A stretch of DNA of 64,000 nucleotides from a bacterium (GTDB lineage: Bacteria; Hinthialibacterota; Hinthialibacteria; OLB16), in assembly GCA_022072055.1 (NCBI GenBank), contig JAJVIK010000006.1:62001-126000 (forward strand), read 5' to 3'. The translations under genes were made by a program, and so were the position numbers. The notes under the pieces are model-generated. The model was not told where the DNA came from and searched no databases. It saw only the letters and a list, made by a program, of their open reading frames with translations. Below are positions 18,389-28,007 of the stretch, in pieces; position 1 is the first letter of the stretch, and the number at the start of each line of letters is the position of its first letter.

Positions 18389-19288
18389 TCAACTGTAGAG
18401 CGTGCCCGTGTTGATGACCGGGTGCGCCTCCTTCTCGCCGCACAAAACCACCAGGAGGTTGCTCACCATGGTCGCCTTGCGCTCTTCATCCAGCTCCACA
18501 ACGTTCTGCGCCTTGAGACGGTCCAGCGCCATCTGCACCATCCCCACCGCGCCATCCACGATCTTGGTCCGCGCGGCGACAATCGCCGAGGCCTGCTGGC
18601 GCTTGAGCATCGCCTCCGCGATCTCCGGCGCGTACGCAAGGTGCGACAAGCGGGCCCCCTGAACAATCACCCCCGCGTTATTGAAGCGGTCTTGAAGCTC
18701 GGTGATCAGAGCCGCCGACACCTGATCGACACTCCCTCGCAAGGAGATCGCGTCCGGATTCGATTCCTCCCAGGAGTCATAGGGATAGGTGCTCGCCAGG
18801 TGACGCAGCGCGGTTTCGCTCTGGGTGGAAACATAATCATCGTAATCATCCACTTCAAAGCTCGCCGCGAAGGTGTCCTCCACCTTCCACACCACCACCG
18901 AGGCGATCTCAATCGGGTTTCCCGAATGATCATTTACTTTGAGCTTCGGCATGTTCAAGGTCCGAATTCGTAGGGAGATCTTCTTCTTGGTCATAAACGG
19001 ATTGGTCCACCAGAAACCGTTCTCCTTGACCGATCCCCGGTAGTCCCCGAAGAGGATCAACACTCCGGCCTCATTGGGCTGGAGGACAAAGAACCCGGCT
19101 GACACAAGGATCGAAAGGAACATGGTCAGAACCCCCCCGACCAGCAGCCAGACCCCCCGCAGATCCTGCCCTTCATTGAGGGTCATGATCCCCCGATAGA
19201 AGATATAACCCGCCAAGAAATAGAGGGCGATGTTGACCACCAACATCAACCACCCGGATACCGGCACGACAACCTTCTCCCGTGACAT
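18389..19288 (-). CDS. SPFH/Band 7 domain membrane protein
   Basis: 299 codons. Two hydrophobic segments (about 12-35 and 45-70) anchor the protein; the SPFH domain follows (EAGVLILFGDYRGSVKENGF, GNPIEIASVVVWKVEDTF) and then a helical region with APEIAEAMLKRQQASAIVAAR, typical of stomatin/prohibitin assemblies. These proteins form large membrane-bound rings that organise microdomains or regulate proteases. AGGAGG is 9 nt before the ATG. It is the first gene of the operon with RHH, PH-like, sulfatase and GT2 genes. Confidence 0.88.
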   Translation of the reverse strand: MSREKVVVPVSGWLMLVVNIALYFLAGYIFYRGIMTLNEGQDLRGVWLLVGGVLTMFLSILVSAGFFVLQPNEAGVLILFGDYRGSVKENGFWWTNPFMTKKKISLRIRTLNMPKLKVNDHSGNPIEIASVVVWKVEDTFAASFEVDDYDDYVSTQSETALRHLASTYPYDSWEESNPDAISLRGSVDQVSAALITELQDRFNNAGVIVQGARLSHLAYAPEIAEAMLKRQQASAIVAARTKIVDGAVGMVQMALDRLKAQNVVELDEERKATMVSNLLVVLCGEKEAHPVINTGTLYS

Positions 19289-19321
19289 GTTCGTGAGCCT
19301 CCTTTTTGACTCTGATAGTGA

Positions 19322-19350
19322 AATGATATCATTGTGATTTCGGATGTCAA
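19322..19350 (-). promoter_or_regulatory. promoter of the SPFH operon with palindromic operator over the -10
   Basis: On the minus strand TTGACA (19345-19350), 16 nt and TATCAT (19323-19328) form a near-consensus promoter. AATGATATCATT (19322-19333) is a perfect 12-bp palindrome that includes the whole -10. A DNA-binding RHH protein is encoded two genes downstream in the same transcript. Confidence 0.65.
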
Positions 19351-19473
19351 GACTCCTTGGAACCCCTTACCCCACCCATCGGGGTGTCCCGCCAGTCACA
19401 GCCGTTCCTCCCCTGTTCTTTCCTTGCTCTTCTCATATAGTTCCCCTTTGTCCAATTCTTGAGGCGGTTTTTG

Positions 19474-20892
19474 ATGGCGCGATCGGTAATCTTAGGGGCA
19501 GGAGTCGCGGGGCTGGCGGCGGCGCATTACCTGCAGAGGCTGGGGGACTCGGGGCCCCTGGTCGCCGAGGAAAAGCCCTATCCCGGGGGTCTCGCCGCCA
19601 CTATGGAATGGCGCGGCTGCCGGATGGACCTGGGACCCCACCGGGTTCACACGATCTACCCTCACGCCAAGGAACTGATTCAGTCCCTGGTCGGAGATGA
19701 CCTCGTGGTCTGCCGCCGAACCAGCCAGATTTTCCTCAACGGCAAGTGGATGGATTATCCGCCGCGCGTGGGCGAGATGCTCGCGAAGCTCGGGCCGCTC
19801 ACCGGTCTCTCGATCCTGGCCTCGGCGATTCCAGGAAAGCTCAAGGGGTTGGGCGCCCGAATCGCCAAACGTCCGCCCCGGTCGTATGGCGAGTACCTCG
19901 AACGGCGCTTCGGCCACAAGCTCCGTGAACTTGTGTTCGACCCGTTCGCCTTCAAGGTCTACCGCGAGGACGCGGAAGACTTGGATGAGATGGTGGCCAG
20001 GGTGCGACTCGCCAGCCAGGGGCTTTTTTCAGTCCTCTGGGAGGCCCTCACCGGTCGCAACAAGTCGGCGGTCAAAACCTTTCTCTATCCGGGAAAGGGG
20101 ATGGGGCTGATCTCCGCGCGTCTCGCGGAGAGGATCCGAGCCTCGGGCGGGGAAGTCCTCCTGCAACACCGCGCGGCGCGAGTCCGCCACACCGGGGGAT
20201 TGGTCCGTTCGGTCGAGCTGGAAACCCCCAAGGGAGACCGGGTCTCGGTGGAGGCGAGCCGTTTGATCACCACCATCCCGCTCACTGTCCTGCTGGACCT
20301 TCTGGAGCCGAAACCGCCCGCCCCGATCAAGGCGGCGGCGGATAACCTGACCTACGCCGACTCTTTTCTGGTCTACACTTTGGTCAACAAGCAACCTCTC
20401 ACTCCTAATTGCTGGATGTATTTCCCCGGCCAGGAGGTCATCTTCACGCGGGTGTTCGAGCTCTACCATTTCTGCCCCGCGCTGGTTCCCGAAGGAATGA
20501 GCTGCTTGTGCGCGGAAATCCCCGCGCGTCCGGCCGATCCGGTCCAGTTTGTGTCCGAGGAAGAACTTAGAGAGCGGGTCTGGGAAGGGTTCAAGCACAC
20601 CGGGATGGCGCGCGGGGCGGAGCGCGTCGATCAAGTGGTCCTCAAGGTCCCGAGGGCTTATCCGATCTACCGCGTCGGGTACCGTCAGGAGCTCAAGCAA
20701 GTGCTCGACTACCTCTCCGGCTTGGGGAACCTGATCAGCACAGGACGTCACGGCCTGTTCCACTACAACAACAGCGACCACAGTCTGGAGATGGGGCGAC
20801 TCGCGGCGGAGTACTCCTTCCAGTCCCCCGAGGAATCCGAGCGCTGGTACGCTCGCCGGGATGAGTTTGACGCCTACCGCATCGTGGACTAA
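19474..20892 (+). CDS. FAD-dependent amine oxidase / protoporphyrinogen-oxidase-like protein
   Basis: 472 codons from ATG 19474, with GAGG 9 nt upstream; a TTG at 19459 is the alternative. SVILGAGVAGLAAAHYL carries the GxGxxG dinucleotide fold, and PYPGGLAATMEWRGCRMDLG is the FAD-contacting stretch shared by phytoene-desaturase, UDP-galactopyranose-mutase and protoporphyrinogen-oxidase relatives. The closing GRHGLFHYNNSDHSLEMG completes the FAD site. No signal or membrane helix. It leads a cassette with three radical SAM genes and a lipoprotein gene, so it probably oxidises or reduces a shared intermediate. Confidence 0.85.
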   Translation: MARSVILGAGVAGLAAAHYLQRLGDSGPLVAEEKPYPGGLAATMEWRGCRMDLGPHRVHTIYPHAKELIQSLVGDDLVVCRRTSQIFLNGKWMDYPPRVGEMLAKLGPLTGLSILASAIPGKLKGLGARIAKRPPRSYGEYLERRFGHKLRELVFDPFAFKVYREDAEDLDEMVARVRLASQGLFSVLWEALTGRNKSAVKTFLYPGKGMGLISARLAERIRASGGEVLLQHRAARVRHTGGLVRSVELETPKGDRVSVEASRLITTIPLTVLLDLLEPKPPAPIKAAADNLTYADSFLVYTLVNKQPLTPNCWMYFPGQEVIFTRVFELYHFCPALVPEGMSCLCAEIPARPADPVQFVSEEELRERVWEGFKHTGMARGAERVDQVVLKVPRAYPIYRVGYRQELKQVLDYLSGLGNLISTGRHGLFHYNNSDHSLEMGRLAAEYSFQSPEESERWYARRDEFDAYRIVD

Positions 20893-20901
20893 GATGAACC
20901 C

Positions 20902-22326
20902 ATGAAAGCGCCCGATATCCGCACCGCCTTTCTGATGGTTCCCCCCACCGGGAAGGTGATCCGCGAGGACCGTTGCCAAACCCCGATCCAGGGGCTTCAC
21001 ACAGTCGCCCTGCGTCCCCCGATGGACCTGCTCTACATGGCGGCCTCCCTGGAGCGTCAAGGGGTCAAATGCACCCTCTTCGATTATCCGGGCGAGGGTC
21101 AGTCTTGGGAGCGACTGGAGGAGGACCTCCGCCGCCTGCGCCCCGACCTGCTGGTCCTCTCGATCACCACCCCCACGTTGGATCGCGACCTGCGCGCCGC
21201 GCAGCTCGCCAAGGTGGTTCGTCCCGACACCGTGGTGGTGGTCAAGGGGGCCCATTTTTGGCGCGACCAGCCCTCGATCCTCAAACAATACCCGATGATC
21301 GATGTGGTGATGCGCGGCGAGTATGAAGAGACCATCGCCGACCTGGTCACCCAAGCGGATTGGGAGAAGGTCACCGGGATTGTCTATCGTCGCAACGGTC
21401 AGATCTCGTCCACCGGCAAACGTCCCTATCTCCAGGAATTGGACCGTCTGCCTTACCCGGCGCGCCACCTGGCCAATAATGCCCTCTACATTCGCCCCGA
21501 CACGGGCGAGCTCCAAACCACGATTGTCACCAACCGCGGATGTCCGGAGAAATGCATCTTCTGCCTGGCCCCGCGGGTGGCTGGACGAGAGAACCGCGTA
21601 CGCTCCATCCCGAATATCCTCGGCGAGCTGGAGAACTGCATCAACCAGCACGGCATCCGCAACTTCCTGTTTCGTTCGGACACCTTCACGCTCGATCCCG
21701 ATTGGGTGATCGAACTGTGTCAGGGGATCGACCGCGCGGGTCTCAAGATCAAGTGGTCCTGCAACAGCCGGGTGGACACCTTGAACGGCGAGGTCTTGCG
21801 CGCCATGCGCGAGGCGGGCTGCTGGTTGATTTCCTTCGGAGTGGAGAGCGGCAGTCAGGAAATCCTCGATCTCCTCAGGAAGAACATCACCAAGGACCAG
21901 GTCCGCCAGGCGATCAACCTCTGCAAGGTTGAAGGGGTCAAAACCAGCATCTACTTCCTGATCGGGACCCCCTGGGAATCCGAGCAGACCTTTCGGGAAA
22001 CCTTGGAGTTCGCCAAGCTCCTCGAACCCGATTTCGTGGAATTCTTCTATGCCTACCCCTTCGAGGGGACCGAGATGTACCTGGTGGCCGCGCACGAGGG
22101 ACTCATCGCGAAAGGAGAGTTTCCGATCTCGGCTTATTCACGCCCGGCCATGCCCACCAAGTACCTTTCCCTCGAACGTCTTGAGGAAATGCGGTCGGAG
22201 GCGCTCCGCGAGTATTACCTGCGCTGGCCGGTCATCTCCCGAACCATCCGAAACGTCAAATCCCCCAAGGTCTTGGTCAACTACGCCAAGATGGGATTTC
22301 AGCAGCTGGCGGACATCCTGACCTGA
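20902..22326 (+). CDS. B12-binding-type radical SAM protein (paralogue 1)
   Basis: 474 codons, 9 nt after the FAD gene. Residues 1-160 form a cobalamin-binding-like Rossmann domain (FLMVPPTGKVIREDRCQ; LDRDLRAAQLAKVVRPDTVVVVKG), without the classic DxHxxG motif. The radical SAM core starts at C214-x3-C218-x2-C221 (NRGCPEKCIFC) and includes FGVESGSQEIL and YFLIGTPWESEQTFRETLEF. The C-terminal part (LREYYLRWPVISRTIRNVKSP) is shared with the other two paralogues. Such enzymes methylate or couple unactivated carbons, often in lipid or natural-product pathways; substrate unknown. Confidence 0.9.
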   Translation: MKAPDIRTAFLMVPPTGKVIREDRCQTPIQGLHTVALRPPMDLLYMAASLERQGVKCTLFDYPGEGQSWERLEEDLRRLRPDLLVLSITTPTLDRDLRAAQLAKVVRPDTVVVVKGAHFWRDQPSILKQYPMIDVVMRGEYEETIADLVTQADWEKVTGIVYRRNGQISSTGKRPYLQELDRLPYPARHLANNALYIRPDTGELQTTIVTNRGCPEKCIFCLAPRVAGRENRVRSIPNILGELENCINQHGIRNFLFRSDTFTLDPDWVIELCQGIDRAGLKIKWSCNSRVDTLNGEVLRAMREAGCWLISFGVESGSQEILDLLRKNITKDQVRQAINLCKVEGVKTSIYFLIGTPWESEQTFRETLEFAKLLEPDFVEFFYAYPFEGTEMYLVAAHEGLIAKGEFPISAYSRPAMPTKYLSLERLEEMRSEALREYYLRWPVISRTIRNVKSPKVLVNYAKMGFQQLADILT

Positions 22327-22337
22327 AGGCGAATCCA

Positions 22338-23795
22338 GTGACAGCCAAACGGCATCGCATCCTGCTTCTTAACCCCCCCGGCGACCAGCGCTACATCCGG
22401 GACTACTACTGCAGCCACATCTCCAAGGCGCGCTACATCTGGCATCCCTACGACCTGTTCGTTCAAAGCGGTATTTTAGGTGAGCGGCATGACTTGGCGG
22501 CCCTGGACGCCAATATCGACAACTGGACCTTCGAGCAGACCGCCGCGCGGCTCGCGAAGTTGGATTTCGACACGGTCCTCATGCTCACCGGCCAGGTCTC
22601 CTGGATGAACGACTTCCGCTTCGCCGAGCAGCACCTTGCCGGAAAGACCCTGATCGCCTCCGGGGATGTGACCATCGCCAATGGGCGCGACCTGCTTGAA
22701 CGCTTCCCGTTCCTGGAGGCCACCCTGCAGGATTTCACCCAACCCGCGATCAGCGATTACCTTGAAAGAAGGGACGCCGCCGGCGGCAAGGCGCTCGCGA
22801 GCGGCGACCCGATTCCCGGACTCCTCTACCGCAACGTCTCCGGGGAGATGGTTGAAGGGCCGGTTTACCCCGCCTACGGGCGCTTCTCGCACCCGATCCC
22901 GAAGTATGAGCTTTTTCCGTGGCGCAGATATCGCGTTCCGCACGCCCGCAAGCTCCCCTTCGCCTCGATGATGACCGACTTCGGCTGCCCCTATCACTGC
23001 AGCTTCTGCATTACCGGGAATTTCGGGTACCGGATGCGCGACCTGGACAATGTGGCCGAGGAGCTCGCCTATATCCGGAGCATCGGGATCGAGGACATCT
23101 GGTTCAAGGATGTGGTCTTCGGGGTCAACAAGCGCCACTACAACGAGCTGCTCGACCTGCTCATCGGCCAACCCAAGCCGTTTCGTTGGGCAACCCTCTC
23201 GCGGGTGGACATTGTAACCGAGGAGTTGCTTGAGAAGATGGCGCGCGCGGGGTGCCACACCATCCAGTTCGGCGTGGAAAGCGCCGACGAAAAGATTCTC
23301 GAATCGATTGAAAAGGGGATCAGCCCCGAGCGGGTCAAGGAGGTCTTCGCGCTCTGCCGGAAGCTTGGGATTCGCACCCTGGCGCATTTCATTCTGGGGC
23401 TTCCGGGGGAGACACTCGAATCCGCCCGTCGGACCATCGACATGGCCCTCGAAATCGACCCGGACTTCGCCTCTTTCAATGTCGCCTCGCCGCGCCTCGG
23501 AACCGCGCTCCGGGAGGAGGCGCTCGAGAAGGGCTACATCCCCAACCAATTGACCGAACTGGACAATTCCATCTCGTTCCCTACCATGGAGCTCGGGACT
23601 CTGTCCAAACAGGAGGTGTGGGCGCTGCGGAGCGAAGCCATCCGGAGGTTCTATCTCCGCCCGAGCTACCTCTGGCGACGTCTTTCCGGGGTGCGTTCGG
23701 GACGGGAGCTGGGGAATTCCCTGGTCGAGGGATTCAACCTGATTCGCAACGCGTTCCGCCCCGGAGTCGACCCCGCCGAGATGGTGGAAGTCTGA
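22338..23795 (+). CDS. B12-binding-type radical SAM protein (paralogue 2)
   Basis: 485 codons from a GTG. It is more divergent than its neighbours: the N-terminal domain starts LLLNPPGDQRYIRDYYCSH and has ALDANIDNWTFEQTAARL. Cluster cysteines are C217, C221 and C224 (FGCPYHCSFC). FGVESADEKILESIEKGIS and AHFILGLPGETLESARRTID are the SAM-binding strands. The tail RRFYLRPSYLWRRLSGVRSG matches the tails of paralogues 1 and 3. It lies 11 nt after paralogue 1, probably in the same transcript. Role unknown. Confidence 0.9.
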   Translation: MTAKRHRILLLNPPGDQRYIRDYYCSHISKARYIWHPYDLFVQSGILGERHDLAALDANIDNWTFEQTAARLAKLDFDTVLMLTGQVSWMNDFRFAEQHLAGKTLIASGDVTIANGRDLLERFPFLEATLQDFTQPAISDYLERRDAAGGKALASGDPIPGLLYRNVSGEMVEGPVYPAYGRFSHPIPKYELFPWRRYRVPHARKLPFASMMTDFGCPYHCSFCITGNFGYRMRDLDNVAEELAYIRSIGIEDIWFKDVVFGVNKRHYNELLDLLIGQPKPFRWATLSRVDIVTEELLEKMARAGCHTIQFGVESADEKILESIEKGISPERVKEVFALCRKLGIRTLAHFILGLPGETLESARRTIDMALEIDPDFASFNVASPRLGTALREEALEKGYIPNQLTELDNSISFPTMELGTLSKQEVWALRSEAIRRFYLRPSYLWRRLSGVRSGRELGNSLVEGFNLIRNAFRPGVDPAEMVEV

Positions 23796-23835
23796 CGCCC
23801 GCCCATCCAATCCAGCTGAATTGAGGCGAATAACC

Positions 23836-25191
23836 GTGCGTTTCACCCTGCGAAGAATCGGCATCCTTATGTTCATCGCCCTGGGGCTTGCGGGCTGCTC
23901 CAAGCCCCCGGCGGAGGACATGTTTCAAGAGGCTTACTCGCTGATGGTCCAGCAGAACTATGTCTCGGCCCGTCACCGCTTCGAGGAGCTCATCAAGGCC
24001 CATCCGGATTTCGAACTGATCCCCGAAGTCCGGATGTTCGTGGCCGACTGCTACAATTTCGAACAGCGTCCCGATGACGCCGAGGCGATCTTCAAGGAAA
24101 TCGCCGAGAAGTACCCCAACACCATGCGCTCCCTCAAGGCCAACATCCGCCTCGGTGACATGGCGGTGAACGACAAGCGCTACGAGGACGCGGTCAAATA
24201 CTTCACTGATGCCGTGGATGACTCGACCGGCGAGGCGGACCGTTTGACTGTCTTGAACGGCCTGTCCAAGGCCTACGACGCCGCCGGGGAGAAGGCCAAG
24301 TCCCACGAGACCTTGAACCGGATGATGGAGGTCGCCAAGGAGCCTCGGCACCGCTTGCGCGTCGGGGCCGAACTCTTCAACAAGCTCATCATGGATGGCT
24401 CCAAGGAAGAGGCTTGGCGCGCCATCGCGAGCGTGTATGACCCGAAACTGACCCTTGAGGAGCGCGAGAACTACTTCAAGGCGCTCCTCCAGGCTGCACC
24501 CGCCGCCGGAAAATACGACCAGGCTTTCCAGCTCTTCAACGCCGTGGTGGAGAGCTCCACCGAGGACGAGGCCAAATCGCAAGCCTCCTTCTTCAACGGC
24601 CTCCTCGCGGCCTCCACCGAAACCCACCTCGCCACCGGCGTGGCGGTCCTCAAGCGCATCCACGAGATCTTTCCCAAGACCACCTACGGGCGTTGGTCCC
24701 CGGTTGAGGCGGCGATGAAGGTCATGTCCGCCACGGATGTGTTCCCTAATGCCACCTCCGAGGTCGCCGCAATCCTCGAATCCTCGCTCCACAATTACGA
24801 TGACATCATCAATGACCTGACCACCGAATGGTTTGAACCGCGCAAGGCCGCCTGGGGCTGGTTCCAGGTCGGAACGATCCATGAGCTCCGCAGCAATCTG
24901 CTCTTGAACCGCGACGCCCTCGAAGAGGCCAGTAAGACCGCCACGATCATCCGGGAGAAATTCAAGAACCTCCCGGAGGAAATGCAGTCGGCCCAGAAAT
25001 GGCAACAGAACCTCGCCGCCAAGCTGCACGTGTCCGAGACCAGCCCGGAGTTCTACTGGCGGCAGATCCGGATGATGCGCGCGGGGATCCAGCCCAAGCC
25101 GCCCGAGGCCGCCGGGGCCGAGGTCGCGGGCGCCACCACCGCCTCCGCCACCACGACAACCTCCGCCACGGGAACCGAATCGAAGAATTAG
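23836..25191 (+). CDS. lipoprotein with TPR-like helical repeats
   Basis: 451 codons from GTG 23836, preferred over a TTG at 23821 because GAGG is 9 nt upstream. The signal peptide ends in the lipobox LAGC with the acylated cysteine at residue 21. After it, helical hairpins of about 35 residues recur (EDMFQEAYSLMVQQNYVSAR, PDDAEAIFKEIAEKYPN, EDAVKYFTDAVDDSTGEAD), as in tetratricopeptide or YbgF/BamD-like scaffolds. The last 40 residues are Ala/Thr-rich and look disordered. Its position between two radical SAM genes suggests it scaffolds or transports the product at the envelope. Confidence 0.82.
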   Translation: MRFTLRRIGILMFIALGLAGCSKPPAEDMFQEAYSLMVQQNYVSARHRFEELIKAHPDFELIPEVRMFVADCYNFEQRPDDAEAIFKEIAEKYPNTMRSLKANIRLGDMAVNDKRYEDAVKYFTDAVDDSTGEADRLTVLNGLSKAYDAAGEKAKSHETLNRMMEVAKEPRHRLRVGAELFNKLIMDGSKEEAWRAIASVYDPKLTLEERENYFKALLQAAPAAGKYDQAFQLFNAVVESSTEDEAKSQASFFNGLLAASTETHLATGVAVLKRIHEIFPKTTYGRWSPVEAAMKVMSATDVFPNATSEVAAILESSLHNYDDIINDLTTEWFEPRKAAWGWFQVGTIHELRSNLLLNRDALEEASKTATIIREKFKNLPEEMQSAQKWQQNLAAKLHVSETSPEFYWRQIRMMRAGIQPKPPEAAGAEVAGATTASATTTTSATGTESKN

Positions 25192-25202
25192 AGCGAACGA
25201 CG

Positions 25203-26723
25203 ATGGATGTCCTCCTCATCCAACCTCCCACGGGATCTTACCGGCGCGATGACCGCTGCCAGTCGCGCGTGGAGGATCAGACCATCCAAGTTCATTTCCC
25301 ACCGATGGACCTGGCCCACCACGCCGCGGTCTTGGAGCGGGATGGCTTCGAGTGCGCCATTCGCGACTATTCGACCGCCGGGACTCCGGTCGGGCGCGCG
25401 CTTGAGGAGATCGGGGGAATCAGGCCCAAGATGGTCTTCTTCTCTTCAACTCAGCCGACCCAGGCCAACGACCTGGCTTTCGCTCAACGGATCAAAGACC
25501 TGCTCGGAGAGGTGACCGTGGTCCTGCGGGGCGAGTCGGTCACCTTCCAAGACCAGGTTATCCTTTCGGAGTATCCCCAGGTGGATTTCATCTTGCGAGG
25601 CGAGTCGGAGGAGACCCTATCGGAGCTGGCTTCGCTCCTGCTGAAAGCCAAACCGATTCCACTGGAGGAAATCGCCGGTCTCAGCTTTCGAGGGGGGGGA
25701 ATGACCATCCGAACCCCGGATCGACCGTTCATCAAGGACCTGAACCGTCTGCCTTGGCCCGCGCGTCACCTTCTGGACCAATCCCTTTACAGGAGTCCCG
25801 AAACAGGAAACACGATCACCACCCTGTACGCCGCGCGCGGGTGCCCCTACCCGTGCATCTTCTGCCCCGCTCCGCTCGCCTCCGGGCGCCCGGTGCGTCT
25901 CCGCGCGGTCAGCGACCTCCTCGCGGAAATCCGGCACTGTGTGGAGGAGTACGGCATCCGCGAATTCCTGTTTCATGGAGACACCTTCACCTATTCGCGC
26001 GAGTGGGTCCTGGAGCTCTGCCGGGCCATCGAGGAGGCGGGCCTCCGAATCCGCTGGGGGTGCAACAGCCGGGTGGACACCATCGACCCGGAAATGCTGC
26101 GCGCGATGAAACGCGCCGGGTGCTGGGTGATCGGGTTCGGGGTGGAAAGCGGGCACGAGGAAACCCTCAAGCGTGTCCGCAAGGCGGTCAAGCGAGAGAA
26201 GATCGTGGAGGCCTTCCGGATGTGCCGCGAGGCGGGGATCCGCTCCCACGCCTTCTTTGTGTTCGGTTTCCCGTGGGAGACCGAGGAGCACCTCGCGGCG
26301 GATCTGGTCCTCGCGCGGGAGATCGATCCGGACTTCTTCGATTTCAACATCGCCTATCCGCTCCCGGGCACCGAGCTGCTCGCGATGGTTCAAAACGAAA
26401 GCCTTTACCACGAGGAGCGTGTGGATCAGGGGGGGTACGCCGTTCCCGCCACTCGGACTCACGCCCTCTCGGCCGAGGAGCTGGACCGCTGGCGGCGCAA
26501 GGCTCTGCTTTCCCTCTATCTCCGCCCCTCCTACATCGCGCGCACCCTTTGGCTCGCCGGGTCTCCACGCAAGACATTCAACTACATTCGCGCGGGGGCG
26601 CGCCGCCTTCGCCAACTCCTCTCAAACCGCCGCTCCAGCCCGGTCATTGAGGAGTTCCCCGCCGACCCCGCCGAACCGCTTCCCCGCGCCTCGCTTCCGG
26701 AGGCAAAGGCCACGGGGGCATGA
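25203..26723 (+). CDS. B12-binding-type radical SAM protein (paralogue 3)
   Basis: 506 codons from ATG 25203, 11 nt after the lipoprotein stop. The N-terminus LLIQPPTGSYRRDDRCQ and the placing of the cluster cysteines at C214, C218 and C221 (ARGCPYPCIFC) are the same as in paralogue 1, showing recent common descent. FGVESGHEETLKRVRKAVK and FVFGFPWETEEHLAADLVL are core strands. The C-terminus (LYLRPSYIARTLWLAGSPRK) is shared, with an extra proline-rich tail of about 35 residues. Substrate unknown. Confidence 0.9.
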   Translation: MDVLLIQPPTGSYRRDDRCQSRVEDQTIQVHFPPMDLAHHAAVLERDGFECAIRDYSTAGTPVGRALEEIGGIRPKMVFFSSTQPTQANDLAFAQRIKDLLGEVTVVLRGESVTFQDQVILSEYPQVDFILRGESEETLSELASLLLKAKPIPLEEIAGLSFRGGGMTIRTPDRPFIKDLNRLPWPARHLLDQSLYRSPETGNTITTLYAARGCPYPCIFCPAPLASGRPVRLRAVSDLLAEIRHCVEEYGIREFLFHGDTFTYSREWVLELCRAIEEAGLRIRWGCNSRVDTIDPEMLRAMKRAGCWVIGFGVESGHEETLKRVRKAVKREKIVEAFRMCREAGIRSHAFFVFGFPWETEEHLAADLVLAREIDPDFFDFNIAYPLPGTELLAMVQNESLYHEERVDQGGYAVPATRTHALSAEELDRWRRKALLSLYLRPSYIARTLWLAGSPRKTFNYIRAGARRLRQLLSNRRSSPVIEEFPADPAEPLPRASLPEAKATGA

Positions 26724-26764: not shown

Positions 26765-27940
26765 TCAGTTCCTTCGTATCCGATAACGATGGACTGCGTA
26801 CGGCTCGAAGGCATCCTTCCAGCTCTGACCCGCGACCTCCAGTGACTTGCCTTCTCCGAGGACCTCGACGGCGCTGCCCTCGGGAACCCCCTCCAAGGTG
26901 AAGCTCGCTTCAGCCCGTTCTCCGTTCATCTCCACCGCAAAGACATACACGCTTTCCTGATGGACCTTCACCAACCTGCTCACCTCCGCTCCCGCTGGGT
27001 TTGACCGGACCTCAACCGTGGGAGGGGGAACCGTTGAACGGAGCACCGGGGCGAGTTCCTGAATCTGCTTGTTGAGCGCGGTCACAGCCGCGAGCATCTC
27101 GGAGTTCCTCAGGAGGGCGCTCGAGCTGAACTTCGGCTCCCACTCGTGGACAAAATAGATGATTCCGCTCGACCCGTGGATGATCGACATCCACACCTCG
27201 GCCTCCACTTGCTTGGGAGTGGGGCGGTTTCCGGTCTTGACCCCCGTGGTCTCAATCACATTCCAAACCAGACGATCCGGTCCCGCCCATTCGCGGAGTC
27301 GTTTGACCCCGCGCGCCACATAGGCAAGCTTCCCTTGGACCACCGGGTGCGAGTGCGCCACCGGGTAAATATCGAACGAGGCAATGTCGCATCCCTTGGC
27401 ATACTCGATGTAATCCTCCGGATGTCCGCTGCGCTCACCCCGTCCCCACCAGCCGTCCCAAGCGACCCCCTGCCCCAGGTTGAGAAGGATCGGGCGGCTC
27501 GGATCGGCGGACTTCATGCTTTGGTATTCACGGAGGATCTCCTCTGGGGGAATCGGGGAGCCATGTCCCAGGCCGCCGGGGCGGGGTTGGGCGTTGTCCG
27601 GCTCATCCCGATGCAACCACCCGACAATCGTGGACTTGTCCGCGTACCTCAGACCCATCTCGTTCTGAGGGCAGATCACCGGCATCTGGGCCAGCTTGAG
27701 CTGGTTGAGCTGCGCGAGGGTCGGCCCCTCCCACAGCCCCACATACAGGTTGATTCCCGCCGCCTTGTAGGCCTTGGCGTCCCTCGGATCCTGAAGCCAG
27801 ACTCCGATGGGGAAGGGGGCCGTGTCACAGGTGGGGCCGCCGGGCCAATGGGCATACAGCGAACGCGCGGCATCCGGGGGAGGTGAAACCTCCACGCCCG
27901 CGAGGAGCAACCCTGAAAGCAAGACACCGATTCCGACCAT
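26765..27940 (-). CDS. secreted glycoside-hydrolase-like (TIM barrel) protein
   Basis: 391 codons from ATG 27940; GGAGGT lies 11 nt upstream, and this start exposes a signal peptide (MVGIGVLLSGLLLAGVEVS). The mature part begins FPIGVWLQDPRDAKAYKAAG and continues with VGLWEGPTLAQLNQL, VGWLHRDEPDNAQPRPG and SFDIYPVAHSHPVVQG, the alternating strands and acidic residues of a TIM-barrel hydrolase. IYFVHEWEPKF may hold a catalytic acid. The last 90 residues look like a small beta domain. I cannot name the family. Confidence 0.65.
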   Translation of the reverse strand: MVGIGVLLSGLLLAGVEVSPPPDAARSLYAHWPGGPTCDTAPFPIGVWLQDPRDAKAYKAAGINLYVGLWEGPTLAQLNQLKLAQMPVICPQNEMGLRYADKSTIVGWLHRDEPDNAQPRPGGLGHGSPIPPEEILREYQSMKSADPSRPILLNLGQGVAWDGWWGRGERSGHPEDYIEYAKGCDIASFDIYPVAHSHPVVQGKLAYVARGVKRLREWAGPDRLVWNVIETTGVKTGNRPTPKQVEAEVWMSIIHGSSGIIYFVHEWEPKFSSSALLRNSEMLAAVTALNKQIQELAPVLRSTVPPPTVEVRSNPAGAEVSRLVKVHQESVYVFAVEMNGERAEASFTLEGVPEGSAVEVLGEGKSLEVAGQSWKDAFEPYAVHRYRIRRN

Positions 27941-28007
27941 ATGAAAAGTCCACCTCCCGCCGTGGGCCCCACAGGTTACCAAAGGAAGGCCGCTTTCCCC
28001 AGCGCGG

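Follow-up and report, generated by a model that had tools for sequence, protein, structure and literature searches.

The locus considered here raises the question of what a flavoenzyme, three radical SAM proteins and a lipoprotein, encoded side by side in a member of the Hinthialibacterota, could be making together. An earlier note on this DNA had proposed a dedicated, undescribed envelope pathway in which carbon methylation or coupling, a redox step and a lipoprotein carrier would be combined. Our literature search found no paper on this gene set, and the Hinthialibacterota are mentioned only in passing in the literature found. We argue here that the five genes very probably form an undescribed pathway and that they most likely remodel a sugar for the cell envelope. 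The envelope setting proposed earlier thus fits the conservation of the set and the lipoprotein signal, while the chemistry proposed with it finds no support.

The cassette and its occurrence

In the window, by which we mean the whole 64,000-nucleotide stretch of DNA analysed, five colinear plus-strand genes follow one another in the order FAD protein (FAD), rSAM-A, rSAM-B, TPR lipoprotein (LP) and rSAM-C (Table 1; the radical SAM proteins are A, B and C hereafter). The gaps between them are 9, 11, 40 and 11 nt, confirming the colinear arrangement with gaps of 9–40 nt described earlier. Since the upstream neighbour, a Band 7 gene (18389–19288, minus strand), diverges from the cassette and the downstream gene (26765–27982, minus strand) converges on it, the cassette forms one isolated unit. 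Within the upstream intergenic region, the sole consensus match seen lies on the minus strand. Pfam assigns Amino_oxidase/NAD_binding_8 to FAD, Radical_SAM to A, B and C, and TPRs to LP. A role as a defence system was rejected, as the PADLOC matches are marginal and stem from superfamily resemblance.

Table 1. Features of the cassette region in window coordinates
Feature	Coordinates	Strand	Remarks
Intergenic region separating the cassette from the divergent Band 7 gene	19289..19473	+	Presumed site of the cassette promoter
FAD protein, UDP-galactopyranose-mutase-like flavoenzyme (PRK07208-type)	19474..20892	+	Pfam Amino_oxidase; eukaryotic UGMs are the closest PDB entries in profile and fold searches; active-site positions of UGM are invariant
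rSAM-A, radical SAM protein of AprD4/HpnJ-like type; N-domain of B12-binding type; CxxxCxxC (GCPEKCIFC)	20902..22326	+	
rSAM-B, divergent radical SAM protein resembling AprD4; N-domain Rossmann-like and unmatched by the B12-binding Pfam model; RDxYCSH motif conserved	22338..23795	+	
LP, TPR lipoprotein, lipobox LAGC	23836..25191	+	GTG start at 23836 after a GAGG-like site; TTG at 23821 also possible
rSAM-C, radical SAM protein of AprD4/HpnJ-like type; B12-binding N-domain; its clade is sister to that of rSAM-A	25203..26723	+	

Our Hinthialibacterota sample comprised 14 genomes in families f1 (the window's own), f2, f3, f4 and f5. The full order FAD-A-B-LP-C is kept in all three genera of f1, with identities between genera of 72–80% for the four enzymes and 38–51% for LP. 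In f3 (six genomes) the set is split: a glycosyltransferase gene (GT2), FAD and A stand together in 6/6, with B adjacent or near in most (23 kb away in G007), and LP-C occupies a separate locus in 6/6, a pair found also in f5. In the f2 genome (G003), B-LP-C form one group and GT2-FAD-A stand at another locus, A being broken by apparent frameshifts; f4 has FAD-A and, in G012, also B, with C elsewhere, and a simple motif search recognised no LP in this family. Across the 14 genomes, FAD is present in 13, B in 12 and GT2 in all; one assembly of 810 contigs (G011) is without FAD, A and B. As many of the genomes are fragmented, a missing linkage is weak evidence.

Beyond this sample, we searched 84,980 species genomes with a profile of B and obtained 23 loci. 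They come from Hinthialibacterota, Sumerlaeota (BRC1) and UBP4, from a few others and from some genomes that carry the label Omnitrophota; among these 'Omnitrophota' entries, several are Hinthialibacterota genomes listed under NCBI's name. The orders found in Sumerlaeota/UBP4 are GT2-FAD-A-B-LP (L091), FAD-A-B-LP (L181, L182), A-B-LP (L087) and B-LP (L097), together with GT2-FAD without an adjoining A at three loci (L090, L178, L179); C orthologues are present in these genomes but unlinked. C adjoins a different GT2 in three genomes (G014, G023, G026). Orthologues of FAD, A and C together occur in 9 of the 13 further genomes reached through B. In the three genomes with a divergent B only (G022, G024, G025), neither A nor C has an orthologue; G026 departs from this pattern, as it possesses a divergent C. 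No FAD match was obtained in G022, G024 and G026, and only a weak one in G025. The cassette is conserved in Hinthialibacterota; in Sumerlaeota and UBP4 it is kept in the form of overlapping sub-operons, and parts of its order recur in at least two other candidate phyla. This recurrence in separate families and phyla rules out a chance adjacency of five genes.

Scattering of the genes among relatives had been named earlier as an observation that would speak against a joint pathway, and half of it is seen: outside f1 the set divides into (GT2-)FAD-A-B and LP-C, and these parts are rejoined elsewhere as B-LP-C, A-B-LP and FAD-A-B-LP. The division bears on the possibility that the operon is shared for regulation only, with LP acting as a general envelope scaffold of the CpoB/BamD kind and with FAD-A-B and LP-C serving different pathways. 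Such a division of labour would account for the separation of the modules in f3, f4 and apparently f5, for the unlinked C of Sumerlaeota and for the position of LP-C in f3 beside one half of a split ispG. We nevertheless consider it unlikely, given that the modules are joined in f1, that in f2 LP lies with B and C, that in Sumerlaeota/UBP4 it comes after A-B or B, and that A and C are co-occurring sister clades.

Two side observations are recorded here in their own right. First, in f3, f4 and f5 (10/10 genomes, G004–G013) IspG (GcpE) appears to be encoded in two pieces by unlinked genes, one carrying the barrel half (profile positions ~1–255, open frame ~300–430 aa) and the other the C-terminal Fe-S domain (positions ~240–342) on a protein of 220–300 aa with an extra N-terminal stretch; it is one ORF in f1 (G000, G002) and f2. 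We know of no described split IspG. A GcpE-domain gene adjoins C in L069–L073 and L075 (e.g. L075:6149–6946); being half of the split IspG and linked in f3 only, it was rejected as a pathway partner. Second, a gene for a Na+/dicarboxylate symporter of the SDF family recurs upstream of LP-C in f3 (L075:1847–3100, with equivalents in L070–L073).

The flavoenzyme and its glycosyltransferase neighbour

The FAD enzyme, described earlier as an oxidoreductase, is not a generic one; by sequence and predicted fold it is closest to eukaryotic UDP-galactopyranose mutase (UGM). In a single-sequence search of the PDB, its nearest relatives are UGMs (E 4e-17), and a profile of 12 sequences matches eukaryotic UGM at up to 166 bits, against 93 for the best protoporphyrinogen oxidase. 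Its AlphaFold model (pLDDT 88) gives the same picture, the top 34 Foldseek matches all being UGMs (TMq 0.79–0.83), ahead of protoporphyrinogen oxidases. Furthermore, residues H63, R182, W315, Y317, R327, Y419 and N457 of the Aspergillus fumigatus UGM align with H56, R178, W314, Y316, R326, Y396 and N433 of the FAD protein, an equivalence and numbering offset worked out by hand from the profile alignment, and these seven positions are invariant in 12/12 orthologues. In UGM itself, these residues are known to bind sugar phosphate and flavin. The FAD protein thus resembles eukaryotic UGM and PRK07208-type proteins in profile, in fold and in the placement of the catalytic residues (His, two Arg, Trp/Tyr and Asn); it differs from UGM in that identity is 20–23% and the A. 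fumigatus Y453 position is not kept in most orthologues. The bacterial UGM family TIGR00031 (cut-off 303.75) does not match the window's protein and scores 42.4 bits with an f3 orthologue, and the PRK07208 cut-offs are not reached either. As it stays below these curated cut-offs, we regard the protein as UGM-like and not as a proven UGM. Readings of the protein as ladderane-type or phytoene-desaturase-type were rejected, as UGM is clearly closer by both profile and Foldseek. The UGM reaction is redox-neutral, and the redox step assigned earlier to the FAD protein therefore need not be its role.

In f2, f3, f5, UBP4 and Sumerlaeota, the gene that adjoins FAD encodes a GT2 of the polyprenyl-phosphate type, likely a sixth member of the pathway. 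Its closest named families are the AglJ/ArnC/DPM-type polyprenyl-phosphate glycosyltransferases, of which AglJ and ArnC load sugars on polyprenyl phosphates; its score stays below the family cut-offs (107 bits against 325) and, in the window's genome, its gene is unlinked. The orthologue there lies on another contig (G000:C9, L147), beside a gene for a GH116-type (DUF608) glycosidase, and the same holds in G002:C94 (L150). PMT-type GT-C genes occur near B at some loci (L093, L060, L061) without being conserved, and a number of suspected instances gave no match to GT-C; PMT/GT-C acceptor transferases were rejected as part of the pathway. The cassette neighbourhoods share no conserved gene for glycan export or for a glycan polymerase.

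Three radical SAM branches

Each of A, B and C matches PF04055 and carries the CxxxCxxC motif of the radical SAM superfamily. A and C share 40% identity, and B is 27–28% identical to either. The B12-binding domain PF02310 (gathering score 32.1) is found in A (52.4 bits) and C (40.9 bits) and is unmatched in B, so that of the three cobalamin-binding-like proteins described earlier, two stand as such and B keeps the resemblance only as a fold. The predicted structure of B (pLDDT 87.5) has an N-terminal alpha/beta domain, and its whole-chain matches include AprD4 and B12 enzymes.

By profile, AprD4 is the best solved relative of all three proteins (E ~1e-44, 1e-42 and 9e-49 for A, B and C), with which it shares the CxxxCxxC core. 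AprD4 is a radical SAM 1,2-diol dehydratase of apramycin C3' deoxygenation (PDB 6fd2, solved with sugar substrate). The model of B superposes on 6fd2 with TMq 0.73 and TMt 0.78 (E 5e-27) and shows the two-domain fold of AprD4; the likeness is seen by fold model and profile for B, and by profile alone for A and C. To our knowledge, AprD4 itself is not cobalamin-dependent. The cassette differs from the AprD4 system in having three paralogues instead of one and in that no AprD3-like reductase gene was seen adjacent, and identity at the fold level is 22–23%. AprD4 removes the 3'-hydroxyl of the paromamine aminosugar unit together with the reductase AprD3 (PMC5461906). Among NCBIfam families, the top match of each protein is HpnJ (TIGR03471; 224.2, 161.1 and 212.3 bits for A, B and C, cut-off 577.6), followed here by scores for AprD4 (NF033070; 133.6, 106.2 and 157.5 bits, cut-off 500) and for the ladderane family TIGR04072 (121.7, 80.9 and 100.3 bits, cut-off 360). 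All these scores are far below the curated cut-offs and, judged by them, none of the paralogues is assignable to a known pathway; an assignment of this kind, which had been named beforehand as a finding against a new pathway, was not obtained.

HpnJ is the last enzyme of hopanoid cyclitol ether formation, which starts from a lipid-linked glucosamine (PMC12583986), and a 2026 preprint places it among the few non-methylating cobalamin radical SAM enzymes (PMC13142503). The closest structural and named relatives of the cassette proteins, AprD4 and HpnJ, are thus non-methylating and act on sugars, B gives no B12-binding match, and the carbon methylation proposed earlier finds no support. Should A and C be HpnJ-type enzymes that finish a hopanoid cyclitol, the HpnJ matches (224 bits for A, 161 for B, 212 for C) would be explained, as would the glycosyltransferase, since HpnI is one (PMC12583986); yet the HpnJ cut-off is not reached, and squalene-hopene cyclase, present in f3, is absent from all f1 and f4 genomes including the window's (one spurious 27-bit match). 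A hopanoid role is therefore excluded for f1 and f4 unless their cyclase is unrecognisable, and we consider it highly improbable overall. HpnJ, which makes the BHT cyclitol ether with HpnI and HpnK, offers a parallel in another respect, as it works after a glycosyltransferase on a lipid-linked sugar, which is what we propose for the cassette enzymes; on the other hand, f1/f4 carriers lack the hopanoid cyclase and no HpnK-type deacetylase gene was seen adjacent.

Cobalamin-dependent radical SAM enzymes have also been proposed to form ladderane and tetraether rings (PMC13142503). The cassette could accordingly tailor ladderane- or GDGT-like lipids, with the radical SAM proteins joining or cyclising acyl or isoprenoid chains, FAD acting as a desaturase and an unusual membrane lipid as the product, a proposal with which the envelope signal of the lipoprotein and the TIGR04072 matches of A and C agree. 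A, B and C do belong to the same broad B12/radical SAM superfamily as TIGR04072, but they score well below its cut-off and higher against HpnJ and AprD4, the FAD protein is UGM-like and not phytoene-desaturase-like, and no ACP, KAS or other fatty-acid gene was seen recurring adjacent, whereas GT2 does recur. Lipid tailoring thus appears improbable.

A quick maximum-likelihood tree of 83 radical SAM proteins, with SH-aLRT support and without bootstrap, assigns each of A, B and C to a clade of its own (SH-aLRT 100, 100 and 99), A and C being sisters. Hinthialibacterota and Sumerlaeota form subgroups within each clade, the pattern that old and mostly vertical inheritance would give; some distant B and C rows sit on long branches where their placement is unsure. 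Within its first 30 residues, each clade has a conserved Cys in a motif of its own, IRE[ED]RCQTP in A, RD[YN]YCSH in B and YRRD[DN]RCQ in C, which is possibly a cofactor or substrate contact; related proteins in G022 and G024 carry IREGRC. A fourth related radical SAM protein is encoded outside the cassette in 3/3 f1 genomes (L057:6292–7722, L056:5271–6725, L058:7323–8753), with ~35–37% identity to A/C and a KELGRCGR motif.

A candidate sugar-remodelling pathway

LP is poorly conserved overall, and it keeps its lipoprotein signal: LAGC in the window, and a lipobox-like stretch ending in Cys, judged by eye, in 16/16 listed orthologues, in most of which a short Cys-x(2-4)-P-[DE]-like stretch follows the lipobox. 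LP is membrane-anchored and presumably faces the periplasm. TPR lipoproteins are normally scaffolds and not covalent carriers, which leaves the carrier role suggested earlier without support.

The evidence now available consists of the gene set and its co-conservation, the orthology of A, B and C, the likeness of the flavoenzyme to UGM in fold and active-site positions, the AprD4-like fold of B and sequences of A and C, and the lipoprotein signal. From this, our tentative reading, to which we give a probability of about 45%, is that the cassette enzymes build an unusual sugar, destined for a glycoconjugate of the envelope and possibly made on a lipid carrier. Here we infer the sugar substrate, the lipid carrier, the order of steps, the product and the role of LP. 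GT2 would first load a sugar onto polyprenyl phosphate or a similar lipid, and the UGM-like flavoenzyme would rearrange or otherwise activate it via a flavin-N5 sugar adduct. Next, each of A, B and C would carry out a single radical reaction on the sugar, a deoxygenation or ring rearrangement of the kind seen with AprD4 and HpnJ. Finally, membrane-anchored LP may help to assemble or deliver the finished glycoconjugate. We favour a sugar because the linked GT2, the UGM-like active site and the AprD4/HpnJ-like radical SAM proteins all point to one, and an envelope destination because of the lipoprotein. A bolder version, which we consider unlikely, is that the flavoenzyme and three successive radical SAM reactions would turn a hexose linked to polyprenyl or a lipid into a sugar that is ring-contracted, carbocyclic or multiply deoxygenated, by a pathway ancestral in several uncultured phyla.

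Several observations count against a sugar pathway. First of all, the named-family matches are all far below curated cut-offs, so that homology does not fix the substrates. Second, GT2 is unlinked in the window's own family. Third, the B12/AprD4-like superfamily also contains enzymes acting on porphyrins, peptides, phosphinates and lipids. Finally, no export or polymerase gene is conserved, and PRK07208-type proteins are annotated merely as hypothetical. One alternative is a small-molecule, RiPP or cofactor pathway (porphyrin, quinone or peptide), in which the three radical SAM proteins would act on a soluble precursor by methylation or crosslinking: matches also include the BchE, RiPP and P-methyltransferase families, and the FAD superfamily includes protoporphyrinogen oxidase. 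We see only a small chance of this, as the set is near-universal in the phylum with a vertical-looking tree, unlike a typical natural-product cluster, GT2 is linked, the active site is UGM-like, and no precursor peptide was noted among the listed ORFs.

If the sugar reading is right, the cassette offers a small and testable group of genes for a sugar-remodelling pathway not described before, one that seems ancestral in two or more candidate phyla for which metagenomes are the main source of knowledge. It would also add three new branches next to AprD4 and HpnJ, where very few reactions are known. Furthermore, its product could give a chemical marker for these phyla, whose envelopes are largely uncharacterised.
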